From: a virus
Virus record (IMG/VR): IMGVR_UViG_3300028883_000077
Span: 1 to 42,772 of that record
DNA length: 42,772 bases
Reading direction: 5' to 3' (one strand)
This document shows, in pieces, positions 1 to 42,772 of the stretch. The notes under the pieces are model-generated. The model did no database searches. It was not told the origin of the DNA and saw only the letters and a program-made list of their open reading frames with translations. Position numbers and translations under genes: made by a program. Every line of letters begins with the position of its first letter. Position 1 is the first letter of the stretch.

Positions 1-539
1 CTGTACACATTAAGGAGCAGGAATACATTATCGTTATACAGCAATTCCAGGTTCTTGTTGAATACCGTTAAGTATTCTTCGTCGTCGGCCAAATATTTTG
101 GGATATCAAGAACGACAAAAATCTCAAAGTTTCGCCCTCGCCAATTATCACACGTATCTTCCAACAGCTGGATGCGGCGCGCTGTTTCATCGTAATCATT
201 CAAACACGTAGATGTGCATGTGAACGTAAAGTACTGACTCATTTCCTGGAACTTTGGATCGGTGACAACATCATCCAGATTGGATGCGCTGAATATATCT
301 GTTGGCCCCAAGAACAATTCGTTGAAATCATACCCCGCATCTCTCCATTGGCGGACAAGATCGCAAGTCACGTCAAGATCATCTCCCAAGAAAGGAAGTT
401 TTTTGTTGACGAAGCATCCAGGACACTTATGTTCACAACCACCCAACAGATCCAATGTCAGATCTATTGACATCCAGTTAGCATCACGCAGAGCTCTAGT
501 GCCGCCTTTATGTTGAGCATACGCATTGGGCAATTGCAT
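1..539 (-). CDS. Radical SAM protein, 3' part beyond window edge
   Basis: Partial gene: 179 codons are visible and the frame runs off the left edge. The start is ATG at 539, preceded by a purine-rich GGGAGAGA, and overlaps the end of the upstream radical SAM gene by 32 nt. The N-terminus carries the cluster-binding CxxxCxxC (C35, C39, C42, read as GGCEHKCPGCF), followed by the GPTDIFSA motif where a GGE motif is usual. It is a clear paralogue of the 378 aa protein just upstream: LDLL-GC, GPTDIFSA, the FTF-C-ST stretch and the DDEEYLT segment recur in the same order. Radical SAM enzymes use a [4Fe-4S] cluster to cleave S-adenosylmethionine and start radical chemistry. The substrate is unknown. 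The auxiliary-cluster region, if any, lies outside the window. Confidence 0.85.
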   Translation of the reverse strand, partial: MQLPNAYAQHKGGTRALRDANWMSIDLTLDLLGGCEHKCPGCFVNKKLPFLGDDLDVTCDLVRQWRDAGYDFNELFLGPTDIFSASNLDDVVTDPKFQEMSQYFTFTCTSTCLNDYDETARRIQLLEDTCDNWRGRNFEIFVVLDIPKYLADDEEYLTVFNKNLELLYNDNVFLLLNVY

Positions 540-1644
540 TTGCGTTCTCTCCCGGCTCTCTAAGCAACTCTTTTGGTAGCATACATTTCTTGATGTTTCT
601 GGATTCCATGTACGTTAATATATTACGCGATGCGCATGTCGTTAAATGAGGACACGTAGCGCATTCTTTTGTGTCGTCTGCGTATATCATTTGCCGAATG
701 AATAGCTCTCGTGCCTTTGCGTCAAGTTCTTCCGGTGTCCAGAACCCATCAATGTTTCTTGGAATGTGAAACAGTTCGTCTGTAACAGGAATGTTTTCGT
801 ATATGAAGGGTGCTACGTATAACTCATGATTACGATACGTGTAGTCATGAAACGTTAACGCATTCGCGTATATGTTGATCATGTTGGAATACACTTGGCT
901 TATCGTATCTTCGGTGATTTCTCGACGAAGAATATCACGCAGTTTAGTTGCATAGTCCATTACCAACAGTTGATTGTTACTGCGGAAAAATGATGGGTTG
1001 ATTCGTAAGCCGGTGGTGCAGTCTTTTGATGGGGGATTGAATTCTACCATTAATCGGTGATTTAACTCAGCAAGACTTAACTGAGCGAACTTTCCCTCTT
1101 TGTCGACATTGACAGTAAAGAACACGTCATCCAAATCAAACAGTTCTAGCTTCTTCCACAAATCCGTTAAGTACTCTTCATCGTTGTTGAGATACTTTTC
1201 CAAATCCAGCATCACAAAGCATTCAAACCCACGGCCTCTCCAGTTGGGGTGGTACTGCTTGATCTTCTCTACACGAGCTGCTATTTGGTCATACGTATCT
1301 TGTAGTGTAGACACGCAAGCGAACGTAAAATGCTCGCCTAGCATCAAGAAGTCATCATTATCGAATATTGCGTCAAAGTTGTTAGCGCTAAAGATATCTG
1401 TAGGTCCAACGAACGTTTCATTAAATCCAAACCCCTGCGCCTCCCACTGATCAACCAGTCGAGCAATATCAGCCAGGTCGTTACTATTCACTTTATTTCT
1501 GCGCTGAACAAAACACCCATCACAGTGGTACGCGCATCCATCTAGGAGGTCCAGGGTAAGATTAACGGACGTAAGGCATGCATCCCGCAACGGATTCGTT
1601 GCAGTGTGAGGAATAGAGTACGCCTTCTTCAGTAAATCGTCCAT
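508..1644 (-). CDS. Radical SAM protein with C-terminal Cys cluster
   Basis: Predicted radical SAM enzyme of 378 aa. CxxxCxxC is at C37, C41, C44 (GCAYHCDGCF), after a beta strand reading NLTLDLL. The region after the first helix reads GPTDIFSA rather than GGEP, so this and the next gene form a divergent subgroup. Near the C-terminus, CATCPHLTTC plus a later KKC resembles a reduced SPASM/auxiliary cluster motif (Cx2Cx5C). The start ATG overlaps the stop of the preceding partner gene by one base (TAATG), a translational-coupling arrangement. It follows one copy of a paralogous small partner gene and precedes a second radical SAM paralogue. The family assignment is firm from motifs; the substrate and reaction are not predictable. 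Confidence 0.88.
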   Translation of the reverse strand: MDDLLKKAYSIPHTATNPLRDACLTSVNLTLDLLDGCAYHCDGCFVQRRNKVNSNDLADIARLVDQWEAQGFGFNETFVGPTDIFSANNFDAIFDNDDFLMLGEHFTFACVSTLQDTYDQIAARVEKIKQYHPNWRGRGFECFVMLDLEKYLNNDEEYLTDLWKKLELFDLDDVFFTVNVDKEGKFAQLSLAELNHRLMVEFNPPSKDCTTGLRINPSFFRSNNQLLVMDYATKLRDILRREITEDTISQVYSNMINIYANALTFHDYTYRNHELYVAPFIYENIPVTDELFHIPRNIDGFWTPEELDAKARELFIRQMIYADDTKECATCPHLTTCASRNILTYMESRNIKKCMLPKELLREPGENANAIAQCVCST

Positions 1645-2330
1645 TATCTGCTCAAAAATGATTCTACCACTGCATGCAACATGTTTGTAGGGTTGTCAAT
1701 AAAAAACTGGATTAACCGATCCCCTCCATATATGTACTCATCGAAATAGTACGTATAATACGAGCGATTGAAATCCAATAAAGTATCACTGACAAGGCTT
1801 AACAACACCTCATCGTGTTCAATCAGATGAACGAAATTTACTCCAACACCTTCCACCGGGCCGCCAACTTCATGTTGCGTTTCACCGACGATAGGATTCT
1901 TAACTGGACCTGGTGCGTCAGACGATTCAATTAGAAATAGTGGGAGTGATCGAATTACATCCATTTGATGTTCGATGACACTATCAGGAATTGCCTTCAA
2001 TATGCTACTTGACCACATATCTGGATCTTCTAAAGTCTGCACATGGGCTTTCGCTAACAGAACATCTGCATGCAATTGACTTAAATTTGACCTGCCGACT
2101 AAGAAGGGGGTTTTCATATATTCCACTAAAAACTCAGTCGTAAAGTTTGTTACTAAAAAATCAATCTTGAGGTTCGATAAGTATCCCAATATGTGGGCTG
2201 GTTTAAGTGAGCAGTCTTTAAGATCGAATTTGAAAATAATATCGTTATTACCAGAAGCATTCGCTCGGCAGTATTCATTGATCTCCGAAGGTGACAGAGG
2301 GATTGTTGTTTGTATTATTCGCTTTTCCAT
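1644..2330 (-). CDS. Radical SAM-associated partner protein, copy 2
   Basis: Protein of 228 aa that I do not recognise. I start it at the second in-frame ATG (2330, MEKRIIQTT) because AAAGGG lies about 7 nt upstream; an earlier ATG at 2375 lies deep inside the upstream gene. It is a paralogue of the 229 aa protein at 3417-4106. Both begin with a TxPLSP segment, share a LGYLSNL/LLYLANL-type helix and an L-x-x-LHAD/GIHAN segment, and end with a YYxxYFDEYxxxG signature near residues 190-210. There is no signal peptide, membrane segment or cysteine cluster. Each copy lies directly upstream of a radical SAM gene, so a role as chaperone, scaffold or substrate-recognition partner is plausible but unproven. 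Confidence 0.75.
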   Translation of the reverse strand: MEKRIIQTTIPLSPSEINEYCRANASGNNDIIFKFDLKDCSLKPAHILGYLSNLKIDFLVTNFTTEFLVEYMKTPFLVGRSNLSQLHADVLLAKAHVQTLEDPDMWSSSILKAIPDSVIEHQMDVIRSLPLFLIESSDAPGPVKNPIVGETQHEVGGPVEGVGVNFVHLIEHDEVLLSLVSDTLLDFNRSYYTYYFDEYIYGGDRLIQFFIDNPTNMLHAVVESFLSR

Positions 2331-3430
2331 TCTATACCCTTTGTAACATAATTGAAGAATGCCTTCATTGGGCATCGCGGGTTACTCATGTCTCGTTCCC
2401 TATTCTTCCAATCAGATTGCGTGAAGCAACGAAGGCCACAGCGCTGAAAATATTCGCAGGAAAGACACCCAAGGTCGTCTATATAATTCTGCATCATTCC
2501 AGCATTATCGTCCATGTTTAATGTTGTGGTGAAATCGTCTTGGTCATACCGGTGCCATCTGCAGTTTGATGTTCGATTGTCTGGAAAAATTGTTAACTTG
2601 TTCAATGATAGACAATGCATCTCATTTACTTCATTTTCCAACAATGTTGCAACTGGAGCTATTTTAGGGTACCGATCTGCTATAAATTTGTACCACTCGT
2701 ATATCATACTATCTGATGGCATCATCGCATCGGTTCCTTTGTCAGGAATAAAGTCATCGAAATAGATGTTGAAATTGTCATACAGCCATTTGAAGTACTC
2801 GTCCTTATCTTCCATGAAGATCCTTATAGACTCGACTGTACCGACCAAATTAACCGATATGATATACTCTGGACCGAACCATTCAATGTTCTTCTTGTAT
2901 CGGTTTGACATAGGACGGCCATCAAAATCGTATGAAACGATCAGATGCGAATCAACACCAGCATTTCGTAACTGGTCCATCAAATCCTTAACGAGTTCTT
3001 TCTTGGCAAATAGAAAATTACTTACCCAAACGATACGCAATTTCACTTTGTGCTTATACGCAATGTTGTTGATCTGCCAAGCAATATAAAAGAAGTCATC
3101 ACACAGACGTTCCATCCAACGATCTTGAAACAGTTCGCCTCCTACAATATTGAACTGAACTAGATCAACAGTTCCCGCCCGCTCTTCGATAAACTTATCT
3201 GCGATGTGAAGTTTCTCTTGCATTTCATCTCGCGTGAGTCCAATAGTAGATTTTTTATCATGAAAGCAAAAATCACACTCGATGTTACAATTCTCAAACA
3301 ACGTAAGCTCCACTTCAGCAATCGACGGACGCTTACTCTCGAGAAGCTGTTTAGTAACTTCAGCAGGAACCGAAGGATCTTTCCCCTCAGTCAAAGGAAC
3401 TTGGACTATTGGAATTTCAGACAGTTTGGT
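2315..3430 (-). CDS. Radical SAM/SPASM-like enzyme
   Basis: Predicted radical SAM enzyme of about 371 aa. The open frame begins at a GTG at 3445; I prefer the next GTG (3430), which has GGAG six bases upstream, so the start is uncertain. CxxxCxxC is at about C48, C52, C55 (ENCNIECDFCF), and a GGE motif follows (NIVGGELF). The C-terminal part has a SPASM-like cysteine set: NCRWH, then CLSCEYFQRCGLRC (Cx2Cx5Cx3C), then a final RCP. Such domains bind auxiliary [4Fe-4S] clusters in peptide- and protein-modifying enzymes. It overlaps the end of the 229 aa partner gene upstream and is followed with overlap by the second partner gene. The substrate is unknown; a peptide or protein is the family expectation. 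Confidence 0.85.
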   Translation of the reverse strand, partial: TKLSEIPIVQVPLTEGKDPSVPAEVTKQLLESKRPSIAEVELTLFENCNIECDFCFHDKKSTIGLTRDEMQEKLHIADKFIEERAGTVDLVQFNIVGGELFQDRWMERLCDDFFYIAWQINNIAYKHKVKLRIVWVSNFLFAKKELVKDLMDQLRNAGVDSHLIVSYDFDGRPMSNRYKKNIEWFGPEYIISVNLVGTVESIRIFMEDKDEYFKWLYDNFNIYFDDFIPDKGTDAMMPSDSMIYEWYKFIADRYPKIAPVATLLENEVNEMHCLSLNKLTIFPDNRTSNCRWHRYDQDDFTTTLNMDDNAGMMQNYIDDLGCLSCEYFQRCGLRCFTQSDWKNRERDMSNPRCPMKAFFNYVTKGIEWKSE

Positions 3431-4106
3431 CACTGGCCACTCCACTCTCGTGGGAGCGAACAGCAGCGATCAGACCGAAGAACGGACACGTGCTAGCGAA
3501 GTGAAAGAGATTCTTTCCGCGGAACATATACTCATCAAAATAACGAGCGTAATATGTTTGTTCGCTCAACTCTGGAACATCTTGCGAGTAAACGATCATA
3601 AAATCTTCGAAATTGAGCAATGAAATTAACGACATGTTGATCGAATCATATAGTGTGTCATCAACCCTCGTGATGCTATCTTTATCATAACCATCAGTCC
3701 GGGTAAGTGCATACAACATGAACGAATCGAGGAACACAAGTTGTTCTGCCAGTAGATCGGCGTGCGCTTCAGCGAAGGCAATCATACGATCAATAGGAAA
3801 GACTGGTTCGAGTGCTGGAAAAAATACCTCTCCGTATTTGATGTACCCCAAAATATTGGCGTGAATTCCCATCAAATCAGGAGAGTTTACCATTTCTTTT
3901 AGAGCAACATACTCTGCCATCAACTCATCTGTTATTTCGGTAAACGAACAGTGAACTCCGAGGTTAGCCAGGTACAGCAACAGAGAGCGCTCATTCAACG
4001 AAGAAGTAGTTTGCTCCATATCAACGACGAATAGTTGAGACTTGTCTTTAAAAAATTCCACCATGTCTGTCGGCGACAGTGGAAGGGTAACTACTTTTTC
4101 AGTCAT
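3417..4106 (-). CDS. Radical SAM-associated partner protein, copy 1
   Basis: Protein of 229 aa with no recognised domain, and a paralogue of the 228 aa protein at 1644-2330: same TLPLSP start, same helical core, same YYARYFDEYMFRG signature. The ATG at 4106 has a good GAGG ribosome-binding site about 8 nt upstream. It is acidic, mostly helical in appearance and without transmembrane segments or Cys motifs. The downstream radical SAM/SPASM gene overlaps its 3' end. Two copies, each paired with a radical SAM gene, suggest that partner plus enzyme is a functional module that has been duplicated. The function is unknown. Confidence 0.75.
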   Translation of the reverse strand: MTEKVVTLPLSPTDMVEFFKDKSQLFVVDMEQTTSSLNERSLLLYLANLGVHCSFTEITDELMAEYVALKEMVNSPDLMGIHANILGYIKYGEVFFPALEPVFPIDRMIAFAEAHADLLAEQLVFLDSFMLYALTRTDGYDKDSITRVDDTLYDSINMSLISLLNFEDFMIVYSQDVPELSEQTYYARYFDEYMFRGKNLFHFASTCPFFGLIAAVRSHESGVASDQTV

Positions 4107-4123
4107 ATGCGACCTCTATATTA

Positions 4124-5143
4124 TTATGCTGACATCAAGAGAATGCTGTTGAACTTCTCCGCTTTAGATGAAATTAATCCTGTTGATATGAAATTGTACT
4201 TTGCATTCTCTAGAACGGCAACGTCTTTCTTCTCATTAAGATCGAAGAAGAAATCGATTTCAGCTTTATCAACGTCAGGCTGGGAATCATAATCCAACTC
4301 ATTATCAATCGCGGCATAACAAAAGCGCTTCAGCTCCGCAATAGTGTCGGCATTGGTCAGATCAAAAGGAATATCGCCATGATGGCCGCCCACGCATTCG
4401 TGACGGAATAGCTCTTTCAACAGTGCATTACCTTCTATGGCAGACATTATATCATCAACAGACTCGATGGTATCATCATCCAGGAACTGTTGTAAGAGAG
4501 CAGGAGATGCTCCCAATGCAACTTTGGCACTCTCTACCAAGTTATGAATTTGTCCCAGCAACAGTCCTTCGGCTAATGCAGCAATCTTCACGTTGACCTG
4601 CAACTCGGAGATATTACCCCATTTGTACAGTACATACGCTACTTCAAATGGCAATTCGAAGATGTTGCCGTATAGTTTGCCGAGCGCAGTGTATTCGGTT
4701 GCATTATAAACCTGCTCAAACCCACCAGTCTTGCAAAATGTGCTCATTAATGCATTCCCGGACATATAGTCTTTCAGTATCTGAGCATCGCGCATTTTCT
4801 TGAGGTTTGCGTTGCTTACGCCGAACGTTTTGCTTAGTTCGCTCTGAACCATTTTGAACAGTTTAACATAATCATGCTCACTGACGACAATTTGAAGGTC
4901 TTCTTCACGTAGTAGGAAGTCGTGGAACTTTTGCCAGTCGCCCCCGAATACGTTTTCTATAGCATCATTCAGAGATGATTCTACAAACACAACTCCACGG
5001 GCAGTAACATCGTCCTCAATCCCTTCGAATGTTGGAACAGAAACACCTCTGAAGTCGGGGTGCATGATGATAGATCGCTCATACATCAGATCAACCAGTT
5101 CGGAGTTCTGAACTACATAAATTTTCTTCTTGATGTTAAACAT
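4124..5143 (-). CDS. Unknown protein in radical SAM cluster
   Basis: Protein of 339 aa, unrecognised. The open frame extends to 5182, but the likely start is ATG 5143 (MFNIKKKIYVV): GGGGAAGA lies just upstream and the ATG overlaps the previous gene's TAA by one base (TAATG). The sequence looks soluble and mainly alpha-helical, acidic towards the C-terminus, with a CVGGHHGD stretch near residue 260 and a hydrophobic tail ending ILLMSA. No catalytic motif is evident. It lies between the Cys-repeat protein (5143-5673) and the first partner gene, all tightly coupled, so it probably acts in the same pathway or complex. No function is assigned. Confidence 0.7.
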   Translation of the reverse strand: MFNIKKKIYVVQNSELVDLMYERSIIMHPDFRGVSVPTFEGIEDDVTARGVVFVESSLNDAIENVFGGDWQKFHDFLLREEDLQIVVSEHDYVKLFKMVQSELSKTFGVSNANLKKMRDAQILKDYMSGNALMSTFCKTGGFEQVYNATEYTALGKLYGNIFELPFEVAYVLYKWGNISELQVNVKIAALAEGLLLGQIHNLVESAKVALGASPALLQQFLDDDTIESVDDIMSAIEGNALLKELFRHECVGGHHGDIPFDLTNADTIAELKRFCYAAIDNELDYDSQPDVDKAEIDFFFDLNEKKDVAVLENAKYNFISTGLISSKAEKFNSILLMSA

Positions 5144-5673
5144 TATCGTCTTCCCCGCGAACCGTGACACTGACTGTGACACTGACTGTGACAGTATGTA
5201 ATTAGATGTTGTTGTATAAGGTTGTCGGAATTGATCATAGTCTTCAAACTGTTGATCAAGCCCGTGAAGTCAGACTGATCAACGTCCTCGCCAGCATCCA
5301 ATATATCATAGATTGCGTTCCCACTACCAGGAACGCTTGACGATGGCACTGGGGATGTAACGTACGCATACTTATCATACGTTGAGCCAGCTGGCGAAAC
5401 GTTGCCAGTTAACTGATATCGGATCTTACGAACTCGTGACCATGCTTGAGCTTTTGGTATGACAAGGCTCCGAATATCACTACCGTCAACATTTGATGTA
5501 GGCAGGTCGCCGGCAACTGCATTGCCCTCCGTAGTTGATGGAGCGCTCACCGTAACCCCTTGTGCTGATGCACGAGAGATGTCTGTGGCGTTTACTGCAG
5601 GTGTTTTGCCTGCAGGAGCGGTACGCATCGTGTTGATCCAGGTCACATACTGTGTCTTTGTAATATTAGCCAT
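5143..5673 (-). CDS. Small protein with C-terminal CHSQCHSQCHG repeat; candidate modification substrate
   Basis: Protein of 176 aa. The ATG at 5673 abuts the TAA of the radical SAM/SPASM gene with no gap, and GGGGCAAGAG within that gene's end serves as ribosome-binding site. Residues 1-150 are rich in Ala, Ser, Thr and Gly, and look like a small structural or tail protein. The last 17 residues hold all three cysteines (C161, C165, C169) in the repeat CHSQCHSQCHGS, followed by an Arg-rich end (RGRR). The repeat is encoded by two perfect 12-bp units in frame. A short Cys/His-rich tail next to a SPASM maturase is what a ribosomally made, post-translationally modified precursor can look like, but a metal-binding tail or a recently slipped DNA repeat are alternatives. 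No homologue is recognised. Confidence 0.72.
   Translation of the reverse strand: MANITKTQYVTWINTMRTAPAGKTPAVNATDISRASAQGVTVSAPSTTEGNAVAGDLPTSNVDGSDIRSLVIPKAQAWSRVRKIRYQLTGNVSPAGSTYDKYAYVTSPVPSSSVPGSGNAIYDILDAGEDVDQSDFTGLINSLKTMINSDNLIQQHLITYCHSQCHSQCHGSRGRR
5164..5193 (-). repeat. 12-bp direct repeat, 2.5 copies, encoding CHSQ units
   Basis: On the plus strand the unit GTGACACTGACT occurs at 5164-5175 and 5176-5187, followed by a half unit GTGACA at 5188-5193. The period is a multiple of three, so each unit adds exactly C-H-S-Q to the 176 aa protein read from the minus strand. The copies are identical at the nucleotide level, which implies recent expansion. Confidence 0.95.
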
Positions 5674-6758: not shown

Positions 6759-7868
6759 TTACGAATACTGTGCTGGGAATACTTGTACCCATCCATTCCT
6801 GTAAATGTACACGATATTCGACTCAACGGCAACGTCGCCGTTGCGAGGAGTACCGGTCGAAGTTGAGCTGAAGAAGCTAACAAAACGGACAGAACCCGAA
6901 CTCGTCGCTCCACCAACCGCATCATCAACATATTTCTTCGTGGCTGCATGATAGTTTGCTGTTGGGTCAGCATGTAGGGTAATGAACCCTGTCATCGAAC
7001 CACCAGTCTTATCTAGTTTACCATTAAGGTCAGCATACACAGTTCCTGTGCTAGCAGTGTACCCTTTCAATGCGCAAATATCTGCCGCTACTTGAATTGA
7101 AGCAGCTGATGTATTCATACACGAGGACTGTAGAGTGTCCAGCATTTCGTTTTGACGAACAGTTAAGTGCATGCTGTCGTCAGCCATGTGGAGCGATAGT
7201 GTTCCTCCAGGGCCGGTGATTGCACCAATAGCATCATCAACGTACGTCTTATGAACTGCATCATATGGGTCAATAGGATCGCCAAGGTTAGAAATAACGT
7301 TTCTGGTCGTTCCGCCATCATCACTCATGCTAAGAGTGCCACCCATATCACCACCACACACACTCAAACGATCGAATCCAATTTTAACCCAACCGTTAAC
7401 ATCAGCGTCTGGATGGGTTGGATCATAAAGTTTTAGAGTAGGCAACCCACAACCGGTGGTAACATCAAGATCGTACCACAAATCACCCTGTTCAGCGGAG
7501 TCTGGGTTTGTTGTGTTTACAACGACGGATGATGTTTTTTTCCACACCGTTCCAGTGTAGTAATACATTAATTCATCGGTTTTATTAAACCAAGGCTGAC
7601 CCGGAATTGGGGTTGTAATACCTTTCCCTGGCCCAAGATCGCTCTCGTCTTGTGGAGTTCCTGGAGATGCTGCCTTCTCATGACAAGCAAAGTTTTCCGT
7701 CAGACGAAGGAGGTTTTGATCGACACCTTCGCCCCACAGCAGGGCACCCATACCATACAGACGCAAATCAGTATCGCGATTCGGGCCGCCTGGGCCATTT
7801 AATTGGCCTGGTTTCAGTGTGATGGTTAAGGTACCATCAGTGCTTTGTACGTAATATAAGTTGGACAT
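6759..7868 (-). CDS. Tail-fibre-like structural protein
   Basis: Protein of 369 aa. The N-terminal module (about residues 15-65: a GPGGxxxxxDLxLYG segment, then GE, then L-x-ENFAC) is shared with the 488 aa protein at 8530-9996. It is followed by a PIPGQPWFNKTDELMYYY segment and by two copies of the common phage-fibre motif in which GGTLS or GGSMTGFITL is followed by AxxKxYVDDA. The C-terminus, with NGDVAVESNIVYIYRNG, is beta-rich. It has several cysteines (ACHE, GCG, VCG, SCM, ICA), more than the paralogue. A late-promoter motif lies upstream at 7894-7901, and the radical SAM cluster begins 11 nt downstream. It is probably a virion tail component, perhaps a fibre or adhesin attached by the shared N-terminus. 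Confidence 0.82.
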   Translation of the reverse strand: MSNLYYVQSTDGTLTITLKPGQLNGPGGPNRDTDLRLYGMGALLWGEGVDQNLLRLTENFACHEKAASPGTPQDESDLGPGKGITTPIPGQPWFNKTDELMYYYTGTVWKKTSSVVVNTTNPDSAEQGDLWYDLDVTTGCGLPTLKLYDPTHPDADVNGWVKIGFDRLSVCGGDMGGTLSMSDDGGTTRNVISNLGDPIDPYDAVHKTYVDDAIGAITGPGGTLSLHMADDSMHLTVRQNEMLDTLQSSCMNTSAASIQVAADICALKGYTASTGTVYADLNGKLDKTGGSMTGFITLHADPTANYHAATKKYVDDAVGGATSSGSVRFVSFFSSTSTGTPRNGDVAVESNIVYIYRNGWVQVFPAQYS

Positions 7869-8529: not shown

Positions 8530-9996
8530 TCAAAAAGGTATACCGATTACTGACCATTGTAAAGTTTCACCACTACCATCTGCCGATCCGAATGTATACA
8601 AGAAGCCTATAATCTCACTCGAACCGCCACGCACCCACCCGGCAAATCCATTTGGACTATCTGATTCGCCATTCGGCGGGCTGCCAGAACCATCATCAAA
8701 CCCAATAGTGGCGGACGCAATGCTATAGCTATTAGAAAAAATTACAGAACCAGATACGTTACCGGTCGGTAACAATACTGATCCCTCCTCCAACACAAAT
8801 CCTGATTGGCTTTGGACATATTCTACAGTGGCTAAGTTTTTGGTGTGACTTCCGACCTCAGATACCGTCGCGTTTTGACACCGTATGACGTGTTCCGGCG
8901 AAGTCATAGGAATCTGACCACCCTTCCCAGTTCCACCGTAATATGTAAAGCGTCCCTCCTGCGATACCATGAACAGATCAAGTTGGTTCACGTTGCCATC
9001 AGCGGACCCCGTTATCGTATCCATCTCTAACACAAGGGCACTGCTATCACGGGGGATTAACCGCGTATACGGACGGCGATTAACCACATCATTGTCGGCG
9101 TTGTAGAACACGAGCGAAGGAGGAGCCGAAGAAGTATTTTCGGCTCGAATCTCCACATACGGGCCAGTGTTGGATGTTATATGAATTCCAGGCGTATCAT
9201 TTGGTAAGTCGAAGAACAACGTATCCGTCATGGTATCGCCAGTCTTCTCAACGAAGTTAGTAGGACCTGTACCGGTTGCTGCAGCTATTTCATCATCAAC
9301 GTATTTCTTGTTCGGAATGTCGTCGTCGTGGGTGACAAGCGTCTCGTAGTTGTTAATCTCTGAGTGAAGTGTGCCGTCGATTTCGATACGAAATAGATCA
9401 GTTTCAGAACCATCACGAATCAGTGATCCTTTCGATACAGTAAATGCACCAGTGCCGCTACTATCACCATCCAGATGAACATAGAAACTATCGTCAACAG
9501 AAATCAGTCCGGACTGAGCCATTCGGATATCAGCTCCATTGCTGACATTACCGTTACCTTCATTTAAGAACAATGATTGCCACGAATGAACACCTGATAA
9601 ATTCGAATCTCCAGCTCTATTGACTTTACCGTCTAACTGGGCCTGCAAACCAGTAATATCGCTAATATCTAACGATCCGCCAACAAGATTCCAGGCAGAG
9701 CCGTCATACGTATACAGTTGGTTGTCTGTTTTATTAAACCACAACTGACCAATAATCGGGGAAGAAATATATTTTGGCGTGTTTGGGGCAATCTGAGGAC
9801 ACGCAAAATTCTCAAGCAGGTGATAGAAGTTCTCATTGAATCTCTCACCCCAACTCGGTGCGGCGTTTCCGTAGAGAGTTAGGTCCGATCGCTGCTGAAC
9901 GCCACCTGGACCGTCGAATGTACGCGGCTGGATAGCGAAATCGTCTGGATCGTCAGCATCCGTTCTTGTGATAATATAAACTGTTGTGTCCGCCAT
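8530..9996 (-). CDS. Tail-fibre-like structural protein
   Basis: Protein of 488 aa and paralogue of the 369 aa gene in its N-terminal module: FDGPGGVQQRSDLTLYG, then SWGERFNENFYHLLENFAC, then IIGQLWFNKTDNQLYTYDG. The middle has the phage-fibre motif VEKTGDTMTDTL together with IPNKKYVDDEIA. The C-terminus is a beta-rich receptor-binding or decorative domain with SPPNGESDSPNGFAG. No enzymatic motif is visible. A late-promoter motif at 10039-10046 lies upstream. It is probably a virion fibre or adhesin subunit that attaches through the same N-terminal docking domain as its paralogue. Confidence 0.83.
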   Translation of the reverse strand: MADTTVYIITRTDADDPDDFAIQPRTFDGPGGVQQRSDLTLYGNAAPSWGERFNENFYHLLENFACPQIAPNTPKYISSPIIGQLWFNKTDNQLYTYDGSAWNLVGGSLDISDITGLQAQLDGKVNRAGDSNLSGVHSWQSLFLNEGNGNVSNGADIRMAQSGLISVDDSFYVHLDGDSSGTGAFTVSKGSLIRDGSETDLFRIEIDGTLHSEINNYETLVTHDDDIPNKKYVDDEIAAATGTGPTNFVEKTGDTMTDTLFFDLPNDTPGIHITSNTGPYVEIRAENTSSAPPSLVFYNADNDVVNRRPYTRLIPRDSSALVLEMDTITGSADGNVNQLDLFMVSQEGRFTYYGGTGKGGQIPMTSPEHVIRCQNATVSEVGSHTKNLATVEYVQSQSGFVLEEGSVLLPTGNVSGSVIFSNSYSIASATIGFDDGSGSPPNGESDSPNGFAGWVRGGSSEIIGFLYTFGSADGSGETLQWSVIGIPF

Positions 9997-16875: not shown

Positions 16876-17547
16876 TTACATTCGATATGTCAACGGGCCG
16901 TCGAATGTATAGTTAAACATATCAATATCTTTTTTGTGGTATTGTGCTACCCAGTCAATCATTTCATTGTCATACACGTCAACATATCGCTTCTTGCTGT
17001 ACTTGTTTTCCCACGGAAGTGTGGTATTGAGTTTGAGGTGGTCACTAACAAGCTGGAAGTCTTGTTGAAGATTTTCGTATGTGCCAACAAAATCCACTAT
17101 CAATTTATCACCTTCCGTCAACCAATCTAACTGTGGGGTTGTTTGTTGGCACACATTAACGTCGACGCCGTAAATCCGTACACGCGTGGCTTTGATACGA
17201 TTATCCAGTAGGAACCATTTGAACCCTCTACGTTCCGCTTCATCCTGGTCGAAGATGAAACCGGCACGGTTGATCTCATCACTGAATGTCATAAAGTTGT
17301 ATAGACTATACAACCGTTCCCAAGGATTGCGAACAAATGAGAATTTATAGTAAGCACTGTACTGGGATGGTCCAATGAACTTGCGCAGTTCGCTAGCATA
17401 CGTATGGGTTGACAATAGCTGTTGTTCGCCAGCAGCATTGCTGGCCCAGAACATCCCCGTATTGCCTCCGAGAGCATGGGATATGCTAGTTCCTGCTACT
17501 TTTGGTATATGGACGAATACGAACCGCTTGTCTTTATTAACTATCAT
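16876..17547 (-). CDS. Sulfotransferase family protein
   Basis: About 223 aa from ATG 17547; the frame also opens at a TTG one codon earlier, and GGAA sits about 8 nt before the ATG. It has both PAPS-binding signatures: the 5'-phosphosulfate loop FVHIPKVAGTS near residues 11-21, and the 3'-phosphate motif FSFVRNPWERLYSLY near 69-83. These are diagnostic of carbohydrate/protein O-sulfotransferases (Sulfotransfer_2 type). The enzyme would transfer sulfate from PAPS to a hydroxyl, perhaps on host surface polysaccharide or a virion glycan. It overlaps the uvsW stop by 11 nt. It is an auxiliary gene inserted in a replication operon, uncommon in T4-like phages and perhaps acquired. Confidence 0.85.
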   Translation of the reverse strand: MIVNKDKRFVFVHIPKVAGTSISHALGGNTGMFWASNAAGEQQLLSTHTYASELRKFIGPSQYSAYYKFSFVRNPWERLYSLYNFMTFSDEINRAGFIFDQDEAERRGFKWFLLDNRIKATRVRIYGVDVNVCQQTTPQLDWLTEGDKLIVDFVGTYENLQQDFQLVSDHLKLNTTLPWENKYSKKRYVDVYDNEMIDWVAQYHKKDIDMFNYTFDGPLTYRM

Positions 17548-19042
17548 CAAGCAGTTCCACTGTGTGTACTTTAAATGGGTACTTAGCCTCGTTGTAATAT
17601 TTCTTTCGTTCGGTTAGATGTTTTCTGCTATACTTCAAATCAGAACACACGTCGGTAAAATGAACAGCGTCTTTATCTGCAGCCTTGCGCAATCCACGAC
17701 CGATTGATTGGATCGTTCGAACGAACGACTTCCCCATATCAATACTAATCATGTTGAAAATTCTAGGGATGTCCAATCCGGTACTAGCTATTTGGACTGT
17801 TGCTATCAATGTTACATCGTTGCTGTCCTTAAAGCGCTTGTATACTTCCCGACGATCCTTCATCTTATCCTTACCGCTCAGGAAGACAGCGCCTGGAATT
17901 TTATCAGCAAGTTTCTTGCCGAATCTGACACCATTAACCAAACATAGCACATTCCCGCGCTTCAACTCATGTTTGGCTTTGATGTAGTCAGCTATCCAAT
18001 CAAGACGGTCGTTGTGACCTTGTAGGTAACTTTTCTCGCTCGTATAGTCAGGGAAGTACCCGTCAACAAATTGCCGATAGGTTAAAGGCTTAGGATCCGT
18101 TGTCTCATCTTTGTATTGCTGGTATTGACGTTTAAAGTCAATCACGTGCTGGATGATATCAATCTGAAGTCTAGCCAAATAACCTTCATCTTGTAATTCG
18201 TGGGCCGGTTTTGTGTATTGTACTAGCCCAACAGCTACCTTGACAGCAAGGGCATCGCTTTCGGCTTTTGGCATCGTTCCAGTTACACCAAACCGGTATG
18301 GAATATCTTTACCATACTCGTTTAGCAGCTTTGTAAGAACGTTTCCTCGAAGCCCATGAGCCTCATCCACGATGATGACTTGGAAGTCTTGTATAAACGT
18401 AGGATTGTTCTGAAGCGATTGCCAGGTAGATACTACATGTTGGTGCTTCATGTCTTTTCGATCGCCAGAAAATTCCCCAACGTCTAAACCGAAATACTCG
18501 TACTCACGAAACGTTTGATCCGTTAGGTTCTTATCAGGTACGATGATTATTGACCGAAGATTGGCTGCGTTTTCGTAAATTTTTGCTAGTGCAGCAGTCA
18601 TGCTGGTTTTACCAGCGCCAGTACCTGCGATACCAACACCACCACCATTTGCTACTAGCGTATTAACCATGTCTACTTGATAACCGCGCATCTCCCACGG
18701 CTCTTCAGTTATCGGATGTGGGATGTGGCTAAAGAAGTTTTTGTCAATCGAGTCAGGGTCAACTTTTTCGGCAGTACGCAAATCATCTAGCCTGATTTTA
18801 TACCCCAGGCTAATTACTTGCGGAAGAATTTCCTCAAGGAGTGTTACATACGTCTTTCCCGTTTTGTGGAAATAACGTATTTTACCATCCCACGATCCTA
18901 GTTTGAATTTTGGATTGAAATAGTAGTTCGCTGCAAATACGCCATACTTCTCATAGAAATGGCCAACGTGGTCAGGATGTAACCCAACAAATACGCAATG
19001 GACTTCGTCCAGTATGCGAACAGTGCAAATATTTTTTGTCAT
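17537..19042 (-). CDS. uvsW: SF2 DNA/RNA helicase UvsW
   Basis: Protein of 501 aa against 503 in T4. The N-terminal DNA-binding region is followed by the Q-like MRGYQVDMV, Walker A GTGAGKT at about 140-146, DEAH at 226-229, the TGTMP motif III near 255 and motif VI QSIGRGLR near 455. UvsW unwinds recombination and replication intermediates, including R-loops, and drives the switch from origin- to recombination-dependent replication in T4. uvsY lies immediately upstream, two bases before, as a recombination partner. The ATG has no strong Shine-Dalgarno, so coupling to uvsY translation is likely. Confidence 0.95.
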   Translation of the reverse strand: MTKNICTVRILDEVHCVFVGLHPDHVGHFYEKYGVFAANYYFNPKFKLGSWDGKIRYFHKTGKTYVTLLEEILPQVISLGYKIRLDDLRTAEKVDPDSIDKNFFSHIPHPITEEPWEMRGYQVDMVNTLVANGGGVGIAGTGAGKTSMTAALAKIYENAANLRSIIIVPDKNLTDQTFREYEYFGLDVGEFSGDRKDMKHQHVVSTWQSLQNNPTFIQDFQVIIVDEAHGLRGNVLTKLLNEYGKDIPYRFGVTGTMPKAESDALAVKVAVGLVQYTKPAHELQDEGYLARLQIDIIQHVIDFKRQYQQYKDETTDPKPLTYRQFVDGYFPDYTSEKSYLQGHNDRLDWIADYIKAKHELKRGNVLCLVNGVRFGKKLADKIPGAVFLSGKDKMKDRREVYKRFKDSNDVTLIATVQIASTGLDIPRIFNMISIDMGKSFVRTIQSIGRGLRKAADKDAVHFTDVCSDLKYSRKHLTERKKYYNEAKYPFKVHTVELLDDS

Positions 19043-19503: not shown

Positions 19504-20018
19504 TTGTTTCCTCCGGATGTCAGTGCGAACAGTCTTAATTGTTCTCGTTGTTCGTCTGTCAGATCATCCAGGTTAAACTCAGTATTGTCAACGTCCGATA
19601 CAGGAAGTTGTACCATCTGTTCCTCTAGGCTTTCTTCAGCGTCCGCTTCTTCTGCCGACTGTATGAGGAAATCAAACACATCATCTTGTGATCCCGTCGC
19701 TGCTAACTTGTACGGGATACCAAGACGTAACAACCGCTTGAAATGTTCTACGGTCTGTTCTGTTACTTCGAATTCCATACCATTCGGTAATGTGATAACA
19801 TCTCCCGGCTCGTAAGCGAGTACCCCAATGATCATGATGTAATCTTCATTGTCGTAGTAGTTTATATCTTCCCACGACAACGCGCCAGTGGATCCTTCAC
19901 GCTGTCTAATGAATTGTTCAGCAGCACCAAAAACGTTTGGAATTGAACGCATAATTCCATCAGACATCTTTTTAAACGCTGCATCTCTCCTCTCAAATAG
20001 TTCTTTTAATTCAACCAT
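19500..20018 (-). CDS. Hypothetical protein in recombination operon
   Basis: About 172 aa. I use ATG 20018 (MVELKELFERRD), with GGAG about 6 nt upstream and an 8-nt overlap with the preceding gene, rather than the ATG at 20033, which lacks a site. It is acidic, with a beta-rich middle (IMIIGVLAYEPGDVITLPNG) and a low-complexity acidic C-terminus (SAEEADAEESLEEQM). It is not recognised. The tight position before uvsY suggests a DNA-metabolism accessory role only by association. Confidence 0.65.
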   Translation of the reverse strand: MVELKELFERRDAAFKKMSDGIMRSIPNVFGAAEQFIRQREGSTGALSWEDINYYDNEDYIMIIGVLAYEPGDVITLPNGMEFEVTEQTVEHFKRLLRLGIPYKLAATGSQDDVFDFLIQSAEEADAEESLEEQMVQLPVSDVDNTEFNLDDLTDEQREQLRLFALTSGGNN

Positions 20019-21087
20019 CGACGCTCCATACAATTTCTTGCGTTTCCATCAATAACTGCGCTGCAAACTTCAAATCTGGTTTCTTGCGCAGAGATGTTTG
20101 TTTGTACCAAACTTCACGAACTTGCTTGTCCATATCTTCAGCGTATTTAACTAAATCTTCATATTTCCAAGACCCGCCACGAATTTCTAACAGCTCAGCC
20201 GCATCAGGGCGTTTGACAATCACTTCACCATCGCGAAGAATTTCCACCCCCATTCTCAACAAACGAACGAGGTGCATTGCATGCTTTGTGTCATACCCAA
20301 AGTTTTCTTCCAGCTCGCTGCGCGCTTCATTGCGGTTCTTCTTCCACGTCCAGTACTGTTCGTGTTTCTCCTTTGCGCGCTTGTATTCTTCCTTGTTGAA
20401 TTTCACAACAGCAAGCGGCTGATCCAGGTTTTCACGATCACCATCGTACAGCGTGTTCAGGTTATATGTTTGAATATTGAAAGGCGTGTACCCAATTTCA
20501 TAATACAACCCATACACTTCACCGCCATACGGGATCAAGCGATAGCTGTCATAATAGTCGCGGATATTGAAATCTCGGTTGAACACCTTATCAGCACCAT
20601 ACCACTGAACCAATGAAACAAAATCTGTCTGACGAGGTGGGTCTTCGGGCTGAGGGTTGTTAATCCATTTATTATGTCCTTTGATTCGCTTCAATTGAGC
20701 AAGCGCATATCCACTGAAAGTGAATGCTACTTTGGACGACAGTAACTCAGACTTCCACGTACGCAGATGTCTATATGCGTTTGATGTTGCAACAATGTCA
20801 CTCTCATCAACCCATAGCGTCTCAATAATGTTCGGGTTACAATCCAAACACAGCTTCATAAAATGAGCCAGTTCATACAGCTTAGTGTCCTCTTCGTTAA
20901 CATCAGAACACTCTCGTACTGGAAAGAATGGCGTCAATACATTAACTGGATCAGCACAGAAGATTCCACGGAAATCTGTATCAGACGTAGGCAGAGCAGT
21001 TCCATATGCGTGAGACCCTGCATAGTGCTTAACCAAGAGATTGTTTTTCATCAGGTCTTCGGCAGACCGAGGCGTATTGTATTTCAC
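20011..21087 (-). CDS. RlaP/YcgL-type nucleotidyltransferase
   Basis: About 358 aa. The start is GTG 21087, chosen because AAGGA is 8 nt upstream and the codon overlaps the preceding TGA as GTGA; an earlier GTG at 21093 is too close to that site. The N-terminus holds the polymerase-beta-type signature GSHAYGT, then DTDFRGIF (G24 S25; D36 and D38 as metal ligands). The remainder is the long helical domain typical of the phage/bacterial 'predicted nucleotidyltransferase' family (RlaP-like, PF10127). Members are thought to transfer nucleotides to RNA ends or other acceptors and often sit near RNA-repair genes. No RNA ligase is in this window. Confidence 0.85.
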   Translation of the reverse strand: MKYNTPRSAEDLMKNNLLVKHYAGSHAYGTALPTSDTDFRGIFCADPVNVLTPFFPVRECSDVNEEDTKLYELAHFMKLCLDCNPNIIETLWVDESDIVATSNAYRHLRTWKSELLSSKVAFTFSGYALAQLKRIKGHNKWINNPQPEDPPRQTDFVSLVQWYGADKVFNRDFNIRDYYDSYRLIPYGGEVYGLYYEIGYTPFNIQTYNLNTLYDGDRENLDQPLAVVKFNKEEYKRAKEKHEQYWTWKKNRNEARSELEENFGYDTKHAMHLVRLLRMGVEILRDGEVIVKRPDAAELLEIRGGSWKYEDLVKYAEDMDKQVREVWYKQTSLRKKPDLKFAAQLLMETQEIVWSVDG

Positions 21088-21908
21088 GTCCACATTCCTT
21101 TTCGTGCTTTGATCAGTCGGATCAGCATCTCTGTATCTTCGTCTTCGTATTGTTGCTCAATCTCGTGCGATCGATTAATCAACTTCATTGTTTCTTTACG
21201 TTCGTCTTCAGTGTCGTCTTCATTATCGATCATACACCAGAAGTCATCTTCTCCACTCTCTTTACATTGCTCACGCTGCTTATCGCAGTGTGCTGACCAT
21301 CCAGACTCGTCCATTGGATCGGGGCGATTCGGTCGAACGTCCTTCCACCACAAATACAGCTCTTTAACTTCTTTTGCGTTGGCAGATTGATATGGGCTTT
21401 CGTCGCCAAGAGAAATTTCCCAATCCAAGTATTCGATGCCTTTCTCTCTGGAAGGGGTTTTCCAGTTGGGATTAGGAAGGTCGTCGTTTAACCATTCGGT
21501 AATATGTTGCCTGTGGGCTTTTTCCACTTCAACGAAATCGACCAGAGTTTCAAACAGTCCATGAACAACACGAGTATCCATCTCATGCCATTCCGTTTTG
21601 GGGAGTTTCGTATCCAAGCACCACGGCTTAGTGATAAAACGATTCTCGATTTTGGCTCGAATGTTATGGTAGGCATCATATGGGAACATTACGATGTCCT
21701 GCATGACGTCAAATCCTTCCTCTACCAACCAATATCCAAACTTACCCTTGTTGCGTTGTTTGTACTCTTTCCAACCGCGGGCAGTGGCGGCGGTGGGTGG
21801 AATTTCCACCCCCAACCGAGCGCGAACCCAATTTGCAAAGTTGGAGTGAGCCCAATATTCCGCGCGTGTGCGGAATCCTACGATTTTATAATAGAGTTTT
21901 TTCATCAT
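21084..21908 (-). CDS. Conserved phage hypothetical protein
   Basis: Protein of 274 aa, unrecognised as to function. The N-terminus KLYYKIVGFRTRAEYWAHS is basic and aromatic, and the C-terminal third is very acidic (CIxDNEDDTEDERK-type). A Trp-rich middle (YLDWEISLGDE, ELYLWWKDVRP) suggests a protein-binding surface. ATG 21908 has no clear Shine-Dalgarno, and a small hairpin (21904-21919) could cover the start codon. The gene lies between the ferredoxin and nucleotidyltransferase genes. Confidence 0.7.
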   Translation of the reverse strand: MMKKLYYKIVGFRTRAEYWAHSNFANWVRARLGVEIPPTAATARGWKEYKQRNKGKFGYWLVEEGFDVMQDIVMFPYDAYHNIRAKIENRFITKPWCLDTKLPKTEWHEMDTRVVHGLFETLVDFVEVEKAHRQHITEWLNDDLPNPNWKTPSREKGIEYLDWEISLGDESPYQSANAKEVKELYLWWKDVRPNRPDPMDESGWSAHCDKQREQCKESGEDDFWCMIDNEDDTEDERKETMKLINRSHEIEQQYEDEDTEMLIRLIKARKGMWT

Positions 21909-21939: not shown

Positions 21940-22263
21940 TCAACGCTCTAACAATGAAAGTTTATTGGGTACACCGTCCCATTCTTCAGCGTCTTCGAGT
22001 GCCTCTTTCATGGTGATGATTACCGGCCAACTTTTTGATAGTTCTTCGTTGAGTTCCAGAAAATGTTTCTGGTTTTCAGGTAACTCATCATCAGTGAGAA
22101 TAGCATCGACTGGGCACTCTGGAATACAGAGGCCACAATCGATGCACTCTTCAGGGTCAATGACAAGAAAGTTAGGACCCTCGTGGAAACATTCAACCGG
22201 ACAAACTTCAACACAATCTGTGTGTTTACACTTAATACAATTTTCTGTTACCACGTGTGTCAT
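21940..22263 (-). CDS. fdxA: 7Fe ferredoxin (FdxA type)
   Basis: Protein of 107 aa, the same length and layout as proteobacterial FdxA. The nine cysteines of Azotobacter FdI are all present at the same spacing: C9, C12, C17, C21, C25, C40, C43, C46, C50, in [19 protein letters not shown] and [13 protein letters not shown]9, C17 and C50 would hold the [3Fe-4S] cluster, and C21, C40, C43, C46 the [4Fe-4S] cluster. The C-terminal extension ends [13 protein letters not shown] as in cellular homologues. It is translationally coupled to uvsX (TAATG overlap, GGAGAAAG site). It is intact, so it probably works as a low-potential electron donor, possibly to the phage's own radical SAM enzymes. Confidence 0.95.
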
Positions 22264-40901: not shown

Positions 40902-42772
40902 TTATGCTACTCTCCAAATTTCTAATCGTGCAAATCGAATGCTTGATGTATGAAAAGACCCTTGCATTCTATACCGCAATGTAATAGTTTGAACACCCGA
41001 ATAGGTGTTAGTGTTAAATCCTGTAAACGGTGTCCAGTCAGCGGTATCTTCGTGTTCAACGGAAGGATCTGCTATTTCAGTGCCATTGCGTGATATTGAA
41101 ACGTCTGTACGTCCAGACGTGCTCGTTCCACTAACTTCACAATACCATTGTATTCTATATGTACCACTTGGTAATGATGGAGTTGTCATTGTTAACTTTG
41201 TTTGATAGCTAGTGGAGGTTGTTGACGATGTTCCGCTACTTTCCTCAAACTGGTAGTTTGATCCAAAAACTGAACTGCTACCTGCATTAACTAAATCTTG
41301 CCACGATCCGTTCTCATACCCTTCTAGTTTGTTGGTAGAGGTGTTATAACGGATCATACCATTGGCTGGCGATCCTGGACGTTGTGCCGTTGTTCCCACC
41401 GGAATACGAAGGAAGTTGCTATCCAACGACATAATCTCCGTGCCACCATTTGACACGTTACCTTGGTACCAACTAAATCCAGTTGTTCTGTTTGCGGTGG
41501 AACCGCGAGCACCAAACGAGTTTTCATACTGTGGTGATGAAAACGACCCATTACCGATAGTGCGGAATGAAATATACGGGGAATCATCATCTTCGTCGAT
41601 TAAACGAAGGTTTGGCGTATTGCTATCATAATGGTAGAGAATCCATCCACTGATACCAGGAGATCCTCTATTGAAGTATGTACGCAATCCTTCGATTTCT
41701 GATCCAGGTGTATTAACTTCAATATATAACGTGGCATCACCTGTTTCGCCACATTCTATGTCAGTACCAATGTTAAGCATTGCTGTTTCAGCAATACCGT
41801 TGATTGCAACACGTTTTGCAGTTGGACAATACTCAAACGCACTATCGCCAGCAAATCCACCCGCACCATCATTGTACTGGACGTCACGAATATCTCCGCC
41901 TGGTGTAGCATCGGCACCTGCTGGGCCTTCAGGTCCTTGAGGTCCTTCGGGTCCTTGAATACCTTGCGTACCCTGAGGTCCTTGTGGCCCTTGGGGACCA
42001 GTTTCTCCCTGAGGTCCTGCTGGGCCAGTATCGCCAGTGTCTCCTTTAACACCCTGAGGTCCTTGAGGTCCAGTTTCGCCTTGTGGTCCTTGTGGTCCAG
42101 TGTCTCCCTGAGGTCCTTGCGGGCCGGGATCACCTGTGTCACCTTTAGGTCCTTGAACGCCCGCAGCACCAGCAACAGACATATCTGTGATATATGTCCA
42201 GTTAGCTCCGTCATAAAAATACAAACGACCATAATCAGGATCTGTATCTGGCAGTGTTCCAGCAACTAAGCCAAACTTGCCTGCTGTAACGGAACCGGCT
42301 AACAATTCCGCAACAGAGTTGAATATGGTTTCAATTTCAAAACTTGTTCCGTCGGCACCTGCAGGTCCTTGAGGTCCTTGTGCTCCAGCTGGGCCAATTA
42401 GGCTTGCAATGAAGTCGGATTCTGTTCCAGTGTTCCCTACAGCCAGCCAAGACTGGTATGCGCTACCTACACCCGTCGGTCCGTCGACACCAAGTACAGT
42501 AATGTAATGGTCTGTATCTACCGGAGTGTCGTTGGTTGTACTGTTATCTCCTTGACCAACAACTACTCGGAATGATGATGATGTTACGTTAGAAATTTGA
42601 ATGTTTGTGTCGGTCGTTGTTCCGAGCGGAAGTCCTAGTACAACATAGTGTGGCGACCCATAGTCTTGCGATAGCGTATAGTCGTATGTTCCTGTTCCAG
42701 TTCGGTTTACTGTCAATCCGTTACTTGATGCAAGTGTGCCATTGGCAAATGTTTTTGCATAGGCATAAACAC
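40902..42772 (-). CDS. Collagen-repeat tail-fibre protein, 5' end beyond window
   Basis: At least 622 codons are visible. The frame stays open to the right edge (reading [16 protein letters not shown] before the apparent TTG start at 42716), so the true start is outside the window. A beta-rich N-terminal part is followed by a short G-x-y segment ([16 protein letters not shown], about 42352-42399) and a long collagen-like block (about 41910-42162). The C-terminal region has fibre-type motifs ([19 protein letters not shown]) and ends in a beta-sandwich ([13 protein letters not shown]-like). Collagen-like stalks form trimers in phage fibres. It probably is a tail fibre or adhesin. Confidence 0.85.
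41910..42162 (-). repeat. Collagen-like G-x-y repeat tract
   Basis: About 80 residues of G-x-y with GPQ, GET, GDT and GPE units (for example [16 protein letters not shown]). At DNA level it appears as recurring CCTTGAGGTCC-type 9-mers. It is a protein stalk, not a CRISPR array. Confidence 0.92.

Follow-up and report, generated by a model that had tools for sequence, protein, structure and literature searches.

A SPASM radical SAM enzyme encoded by a T4-like phage probably matures the Cys/His-rich C-terminal tail of a small fibre-tip protein, and the modified tail would be retained on the virion (probability of this whole reading about 0.7). In jumbo phages, in marine T4-like phages and in Bdellovibrionota alike, one clade of this enzyme is tied to one 16-residue tail, and the proteins that carry the tail (CH-tail proteins) appear, from their sequences, to be a widespread and previously undescribed family. 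To our knowledge, radical SAM genes are common in phage genomes and their substrates are mostly not known.

The tail gene and the surrounding module

The window (the whole stretch of DNA that was analysed, i.e. the 42,772 nucleotides from position 1 to 42,772 of IMG/VR record IMGVR_UViG_3300028883_000077) belongs, judging from its gene content, to a T4-like phage, because it encodes RecA/UvsX-type, gp32, UvsW and clamp-loader-type genes. The tail gene and its neighbours are listed in Table 1.

Table 1. Tail gene, putative modification site and neighbouring genes in the window
Feature	Position	Strand	Basis
CH-tail protein, 176 aa	5143..5673	(-)	PHROG 35144, E 1.7e-6, residues 65-176
C-terminal tail CHSQ-CHSQ-CHGS-RGRR, residues 161-176, putative modification site	5146..5193	(-)	sequence read directly
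Partner SPASM radical SAM enzyme (rSAM-A), 357 aa	5674..6747	(-)	PF04055 and TIGR04085 above cut-offs
Gene downstream of the tail gene, likely ATG at 5143	4124..5143	(-)	overlap seen in sequence
PHROG 20767 module protein, copy 1	3417..4106	(-)	PHROG E 8e-21
Second radical SAM enzyme of the module	2315..3445	(-)	PHROG 1802 radical SAM, E 4e-29
PHROG 20767 module protein, copy 2	1644..2375	(-)	PHROG E 1e-17
Third radical SAM-type enzyme, PHROG 31457 group	508..1644	(-)	PHROG 31457 E 3e-12; PF04055 weak, E 0.014
Fibre-like protein upstream, PHROG 15511 N-terminal domain	6759..7868	(-)	PHROG 15511 E 9e-17; weak tail-fibre PHROGs
Second fibre-like protein, N-terminal domain likewise PHROG 15511	8530..9996	(-)	PHROG 15511 E 2e-17

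The first-pass annotation described a 176 aa protein with all its cysteines in a terminal, perfectly repeated CHSQ motif, encoded base-to-base with a SPASM gene. The protein is confirmed, with the C-terminus YCHSQCHSQCHGSRGRR followed by a stop (TYCHSQCHSQCHGSRGRR), and its three cysteines (3/3) all lie within the last 16 residues. The perfect repetition holds for two of the three units, which are identical at the DNA level (TGTCACAGTCAG twice), and fails for the third one, which reads CHGS. The coupling is as described: the TAA of the SPASM gene (5676-5674) directly precedes the ATG of the tail gene (5673-5671), whose own TAA (5145-5143) overlaps the likely ATG (5143-5141) of the following gene as TAATG. 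The window contains a single match to the three-unit DNA pattern, and this match has 0 mismatches, for a chance expectation of 0.12 when up to 2 mismatches are allowed; a chance origin of the tail is ruled out by its conservation in relatives.

The gene that directly follows the tail gene has no match in a Pfam search, and its cluster (cluster 23) is found at position +1 in 6 loci. Homologues of the PHROG 20767 proteins occur in 132 loci, mostly immediately after the tail gene, and are a nearly universal partner in the module; a confident AF2 model was obtained (pLDDT 92), for which a fold search of the PDB gave no match (best Z 3.3). Homologues of the third radical SAM-type gene (cluster 3) also recur across module loci. 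Among the radical SAM enzymes of the module, a substrate is proposed here for rSAM-A alone. Elsewhere in the window, a ferredoxin (Fer4 and DUF3470, 21940-22263, minus strand) is a possible electron donor for radical SAM enzymes; it was rejected as a part of the module, as it was not found in 21 other module phages. The window also encodes, on the same strand, a sulfotransferase-family protein (16876-17550, PF03567, E 1e-14) and an RlaP-type nucleotidyltransferase of an RNA repair pathway (20011-21093, PF10127).

The CH-tail family

At least 168 tail ORFs (the IMG/VR matches listed together with the first related loci, translated) have three CH units, the C, H and R residues being fixed by the search pattern of the IMG/VR tail scan. 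Among the matches listed, every reading frame stops at the Arg end. The tail is also conserved where the scan left it free, namely Ser or Asn at the fourth place of the units and, in one scan, the position of the stop. The length of the body in complete genes is highly variable, from about 124 to 364 aa. PHROG 35144 is matched by the window protein and by 10 out of 10 further members tested, always through the C-terminal end; the description of this database cluster mentions no tail, no coupling to an enzyme and no role in fibres, and neither NCBIfam nor Pfam has a family that matches the CH-tail proteins.

The number of units is nearly fixed at three, and tails of four or five units exist but are rare, so that a repeat number varying as in the core of a RiPP was mostly rejected. 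The alignment of homologues proposed in the first-pass annotation, with a conserved N-terminal part and a variable number of repeats in mind, gave the reverse picture, i.e. a variable body followed by units almost fixed at three. A heme-c reading of the CxxxCH spacing was dropped, as the cytochrome context is absent.

The SPASM enzyme

The window enzyme passes the cut-offs of the radical SAM model (PF04055, 30.8 versus 29.5 bits) and of the SPASM model (TIGR04085, 28.1 versus 27 bits). Among 14 diverse members, the three cysteines of the CxxxCxxC radical SAM motif (C14, C18 and C21) are invariant, as are C249, G260, C265, C304, C307, C313, C317 and C327 of the SPASM pattern Cx9-15Gx4C ... Cx2Cx5Cx3C ... 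C. These enzymes share a general resemblance with peptide maturases (DarE, PapB, anSME, HxsB). With the RiPP maturase models (PapB, DarE, DynA, CXXX-repeat), the window enzyme reaches 49.7 bits at best, the peptide-maturase cut-offs shown being at least 225. As these scores come nowhere near the curated cut-offs that the models shown require, rSAM-A appears to be a SPASM enzyme outside the named maturase families.

Association of the enzyme with the tail

Since C, H and R were imposed by the pattern of the first scans, only a reverse set, i.e. 80 relatives of the enzyme retrieved by the enzyme alone, without use of the tail, is unbiased. A CH-tail gene is found downstream in 71 out of 71 evaluable loci, the remaining 9 of the 80 being cut by contig ends; it lies directly after the enzyme gene or about 0.3 to 1.2 kb further on. 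Loci that keep the SPASM gene and have lost the Cys tail, which the first-pass annotation had named as contrary to its proposal, were not encountered among these 71, and the adjacent enzyme very probably has its substrate region in the tail, as had been suggested.

In 40 representatives of the reverse set, the fraction of the majority residue is 0.77 in the tail versus 0.43 in the body, and the last 30 residues contain 124 cysteines versus 12 in all bodies. Both TGT and TGC, and both CAT and CAC, are in use, about equally. This mixture of Cys and His codons, combined with the conservation of the tail, indicates selection on the residues. The same set includes a lineage devoid of the Arg end, whose tail finishes with CHSNCHGSCHGS[IL], i.e. 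CHGS[IL]; the Arg-rich end would therefore be dispensable. A further variant, CHSSCHSSHSSRNRR, has lost the third Cys.

The association extends beyond these loci. Ninety-one enzyme genes have a tail gene at a distance of at most 60 nt, and radical SAM proteins are encoded in all 50 tail-bearing phage records tested (50/50), in 47 of them above the Pfam cut-off. In an annotated phage collection, the enzyme was found in 7 out of 50,697 records, and a tail gene follows it in all 5 loci examined. A second arrangement (class B) consists of tandem tail genes of about 127 aa located directly behind a large tail-fibre gene and not beside an rSAM-A-type enzyme gene. An enzyme of the rSAM-A clade is encoded elsewhere in 8 out of 10 such records (about 450 to 506 bits, clearly apart from other radical SAM proteins); the 2 records without it are fragments of 24 and 39 kb. 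From this co-occurrence in cis and in trans, there is strong reason to regard the tail as the actual substrate of the SPASM enzyme, while the coupling could instead reflect a common role without contact between enzyme and substrate.

Body fold and fibre context

In the AF2 model of a homologue (pLDDT 89 overall), the body is confident and the tail of low confidence. A fold search of the PDB with the body gave no match; no RRE or other known fold was therefore assigned to it or to the PHROG 20767 protein, which does not prove that none exists. A sequence search of the PDB returned nothing useful. Fold matches among viral proteins were other CH-tail proteins, one of them from Atu_ph07, plus larger phage proteins. 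A search with the body only retrieved 203 ORFs, 192 of which carry the tail.

Genes are usually arranged as baseplate protein, tail fibre, cupin, enzyme, tail protein and PHROG 20767 protein. In homologue L193, one of the body matches outside these 192 and encoded directly after its own enzyme gene, four CH units precede a Peptidase_S74 chaperone that has the SDxxxK motif, and S74 domains are known to cap trimeric fibres (PMC10769870). A paralogue in locus L020 has its body fused to a glycine-rich domain (Gly_rich_2). The S74 and Gly-rich fusions are each found in a single lineage, the window protein itself being unfused; together with the fibre neighbours, they suggest a structural role of fibre type. 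In L020 (4643-5569) and in L095, the N-terminal part is combined with a glycine-rich domain and the tail is on the shorter next gene, so that the gene looks split or recombined. In the window itself, the protein encoded at 40902-42716 (minus strand) has collagen-like repeats (PF01391) and is probably a fibre.

In the Atu_ph07 report, the virion cluster defined by mass spectrometry comprises CDS 170-215, and the tail gene, gp170, is the first CDS of this cluster (PMC6102473); the presence of gp170 in the virion is an inference from the cluster boundary. The main texts on the RP31 and AP-J-162 virion proteomes do not name the tail gene. On the whole, the 176 aa protein is quite probably a virion component. 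Of the two fates proposed in the first-pass annotation for the Cys/His core, cleavage or persistence on a structural protein, the S74 fusion, the fibre neighbours and the Atu_ph07 virion cluster favour the latter, and a modified tail would rather likely stay attached to its protein.

Module loci in Bdellovibrionota

The enzyme was found in 16 out of 290 genomes of Bdellovibrionota, one copy being carried by a 4.15 Mb contig, and the tail is present there too. In several of these module loci, a nearby gene combines an S74 domain with a prepilin methylation motif. Genes combining this motif with Peptidase_S74 were seen beside radical SAM genes in L356, L355, L359 and L360. A 195 aa neighbour from Bdellovibrionota has no similarity to the phage tail fibre detectable by BLASTP. 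The S74-capped MAT fibres of Bdellovibrio are used for prey recognition (PMC10769870), a use that fits a fibre role of the module.

Some tails from Bdellovibrionota are divergent (CHGNFPPPCHGSRGRR and CHTNVPTPPPCHASRGRR), and one (L366, CHSSHSSHSSHSSRGRR) retains a single Cys. As the extra cysteines can be lost while His-x-Ser and the Arg end persist, a thioether chemistry on Cys should not be assumed. Thioether or other links through Cys are plausible; from the single-Cys His-x-Ser variants, a modification centred on His or Ser appears equally possible.

Proposed maturation and alternatives

Taken together, the maturation can be pictured as follows. The 176 aa protein would be a small protein of the phage fibre tip or an accessory protein of the tail fibre, its N-terminal body being folded and its C-terminal (CHxx)3-RGRR tail flexible. 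The translationally coupled SPASM enzyme encoded directly upstream would modify Cys, His or Ser residues of the tail, and the modified tail would be kept on the protein, as part of the virion and next to its tail fibres. Confidence decreases along these inferences, from the modification of the tail by the enzyme, through the presence of the product in the virion, to the retention of the tail on the protein. A generalization, according to which phages and predatory bacteria would share a His/Cys/Ser-based modification installed by radical SAM enzymes at the exposed tip of adhesive fibres as a post-translational contact group, is tentative, its chances being slightly below even.

The same gene pair could be read as a RiPP system, in which an N-terminal leader would guide the modification of a Cys-His core, which would then be cleaved off and set free as a diffusible peptide. 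The distant relationship of the SPASM enzymes to the maturases PapB, DarE and DynA and the Cys-rich repeat at the C-terminus agree with it, but the N-terminal part is the variable one and the tail the fixed one, and the body is folded, at least in the modelled homologue. The long leader with a released core considered in the first-pass annotation therefore does not fit well. The S74 and Gly-rich fusions and the fibre context point to a structural part, and the annotated loci of isolates show neither a peptidase nor an exporter, although this is no proof of absence. A released peptide is therefore unlikely.

Phage tail needles and spikes carry His-ligated iron, and the regular spacing of Cys and His in a fibre-tip context could likewise suit an unmodified metal-binding tip, the enzyme acting on another fibre protein. 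That the tail is so strictly paired with a single SPASM clade, whether in cis or in trans, is hard to explain unless it is acted upon, and the spacing is lost in variants from Bdellovibrionota such as CHGNFPPPCHGSRGRR; this explanation is slightly less probable still than a released peptide. Least probable is a tail that would itself stay unchanged and act as a signal for docking or targeting, either in assembly or towards the enzyme complex: a flexible, highly conserved C-terminal segment with a positively charged end would be suitable, but a whole lineage without the Arg end has retained CHxS, and conserved Cys and His are unusual in a mere docking peptide.

Significance and comparison with known systems

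The enzyme and its tail would constitute a directly testable enzyme-substrate pair that is available in cultured phages. If the proposed maturation is true, radical SAM chemistry joins the ways of virion maturation and may bear on the contact between fibre and host; a contact group at the fibre tip would be the first case of radical SAM maturation of a virion part. A literature search, with subscription journals mostly outside its scope, found no text on the SRGRR tail in phages or on substrates of phage SPASM enzymes, and no report of virion maturation by such an enzyme.

On the structural side, the CH-tail family recalls the S74-capped phage tail fibres through the S74 chaperone of L193, whereas most CH-tail proteins lack S74. 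With the MAT fibres of Bdellovibrio, the common point is that the module adjoins prepilin-S74 genes in Bdellovibrionota; the MAT paper (PMC10769870) does not mention radical SAM enzymes.

On the enzymatic side, both cluster signatures and the location of the gene beside a conserved C-terminal Cys target are shared with the SPASM peptide maturases (anSME, PapB, DarE, DynA and SCIFF groups). The window enzyme is however far below their curated cut-offs, and the target here is a folded fibre-type protein, theirs a short peptide. The CXXX-repeat peptide maturase family (TIGR04115) likewise has a four-residue Cys repeat at the C-terminus of its target, but the window enzyme scores 24.9 bits versus a cut-off of 350. 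The His-Xaa-Ser system (HxsA/B/C/D) is similar in that most tail units contain His-x-Ser. Its HxsB model has hits to 12 out of 14 enzymes (best E 1e-14), which may or may not reach the family cut-off. HxsA has no match in 11 tail proteins and HxsD none to the PHROG 20767 proteins. Unlike the His-Xaa-Ser system, the tails described here have a period of four and carry Cys in nearly all members.
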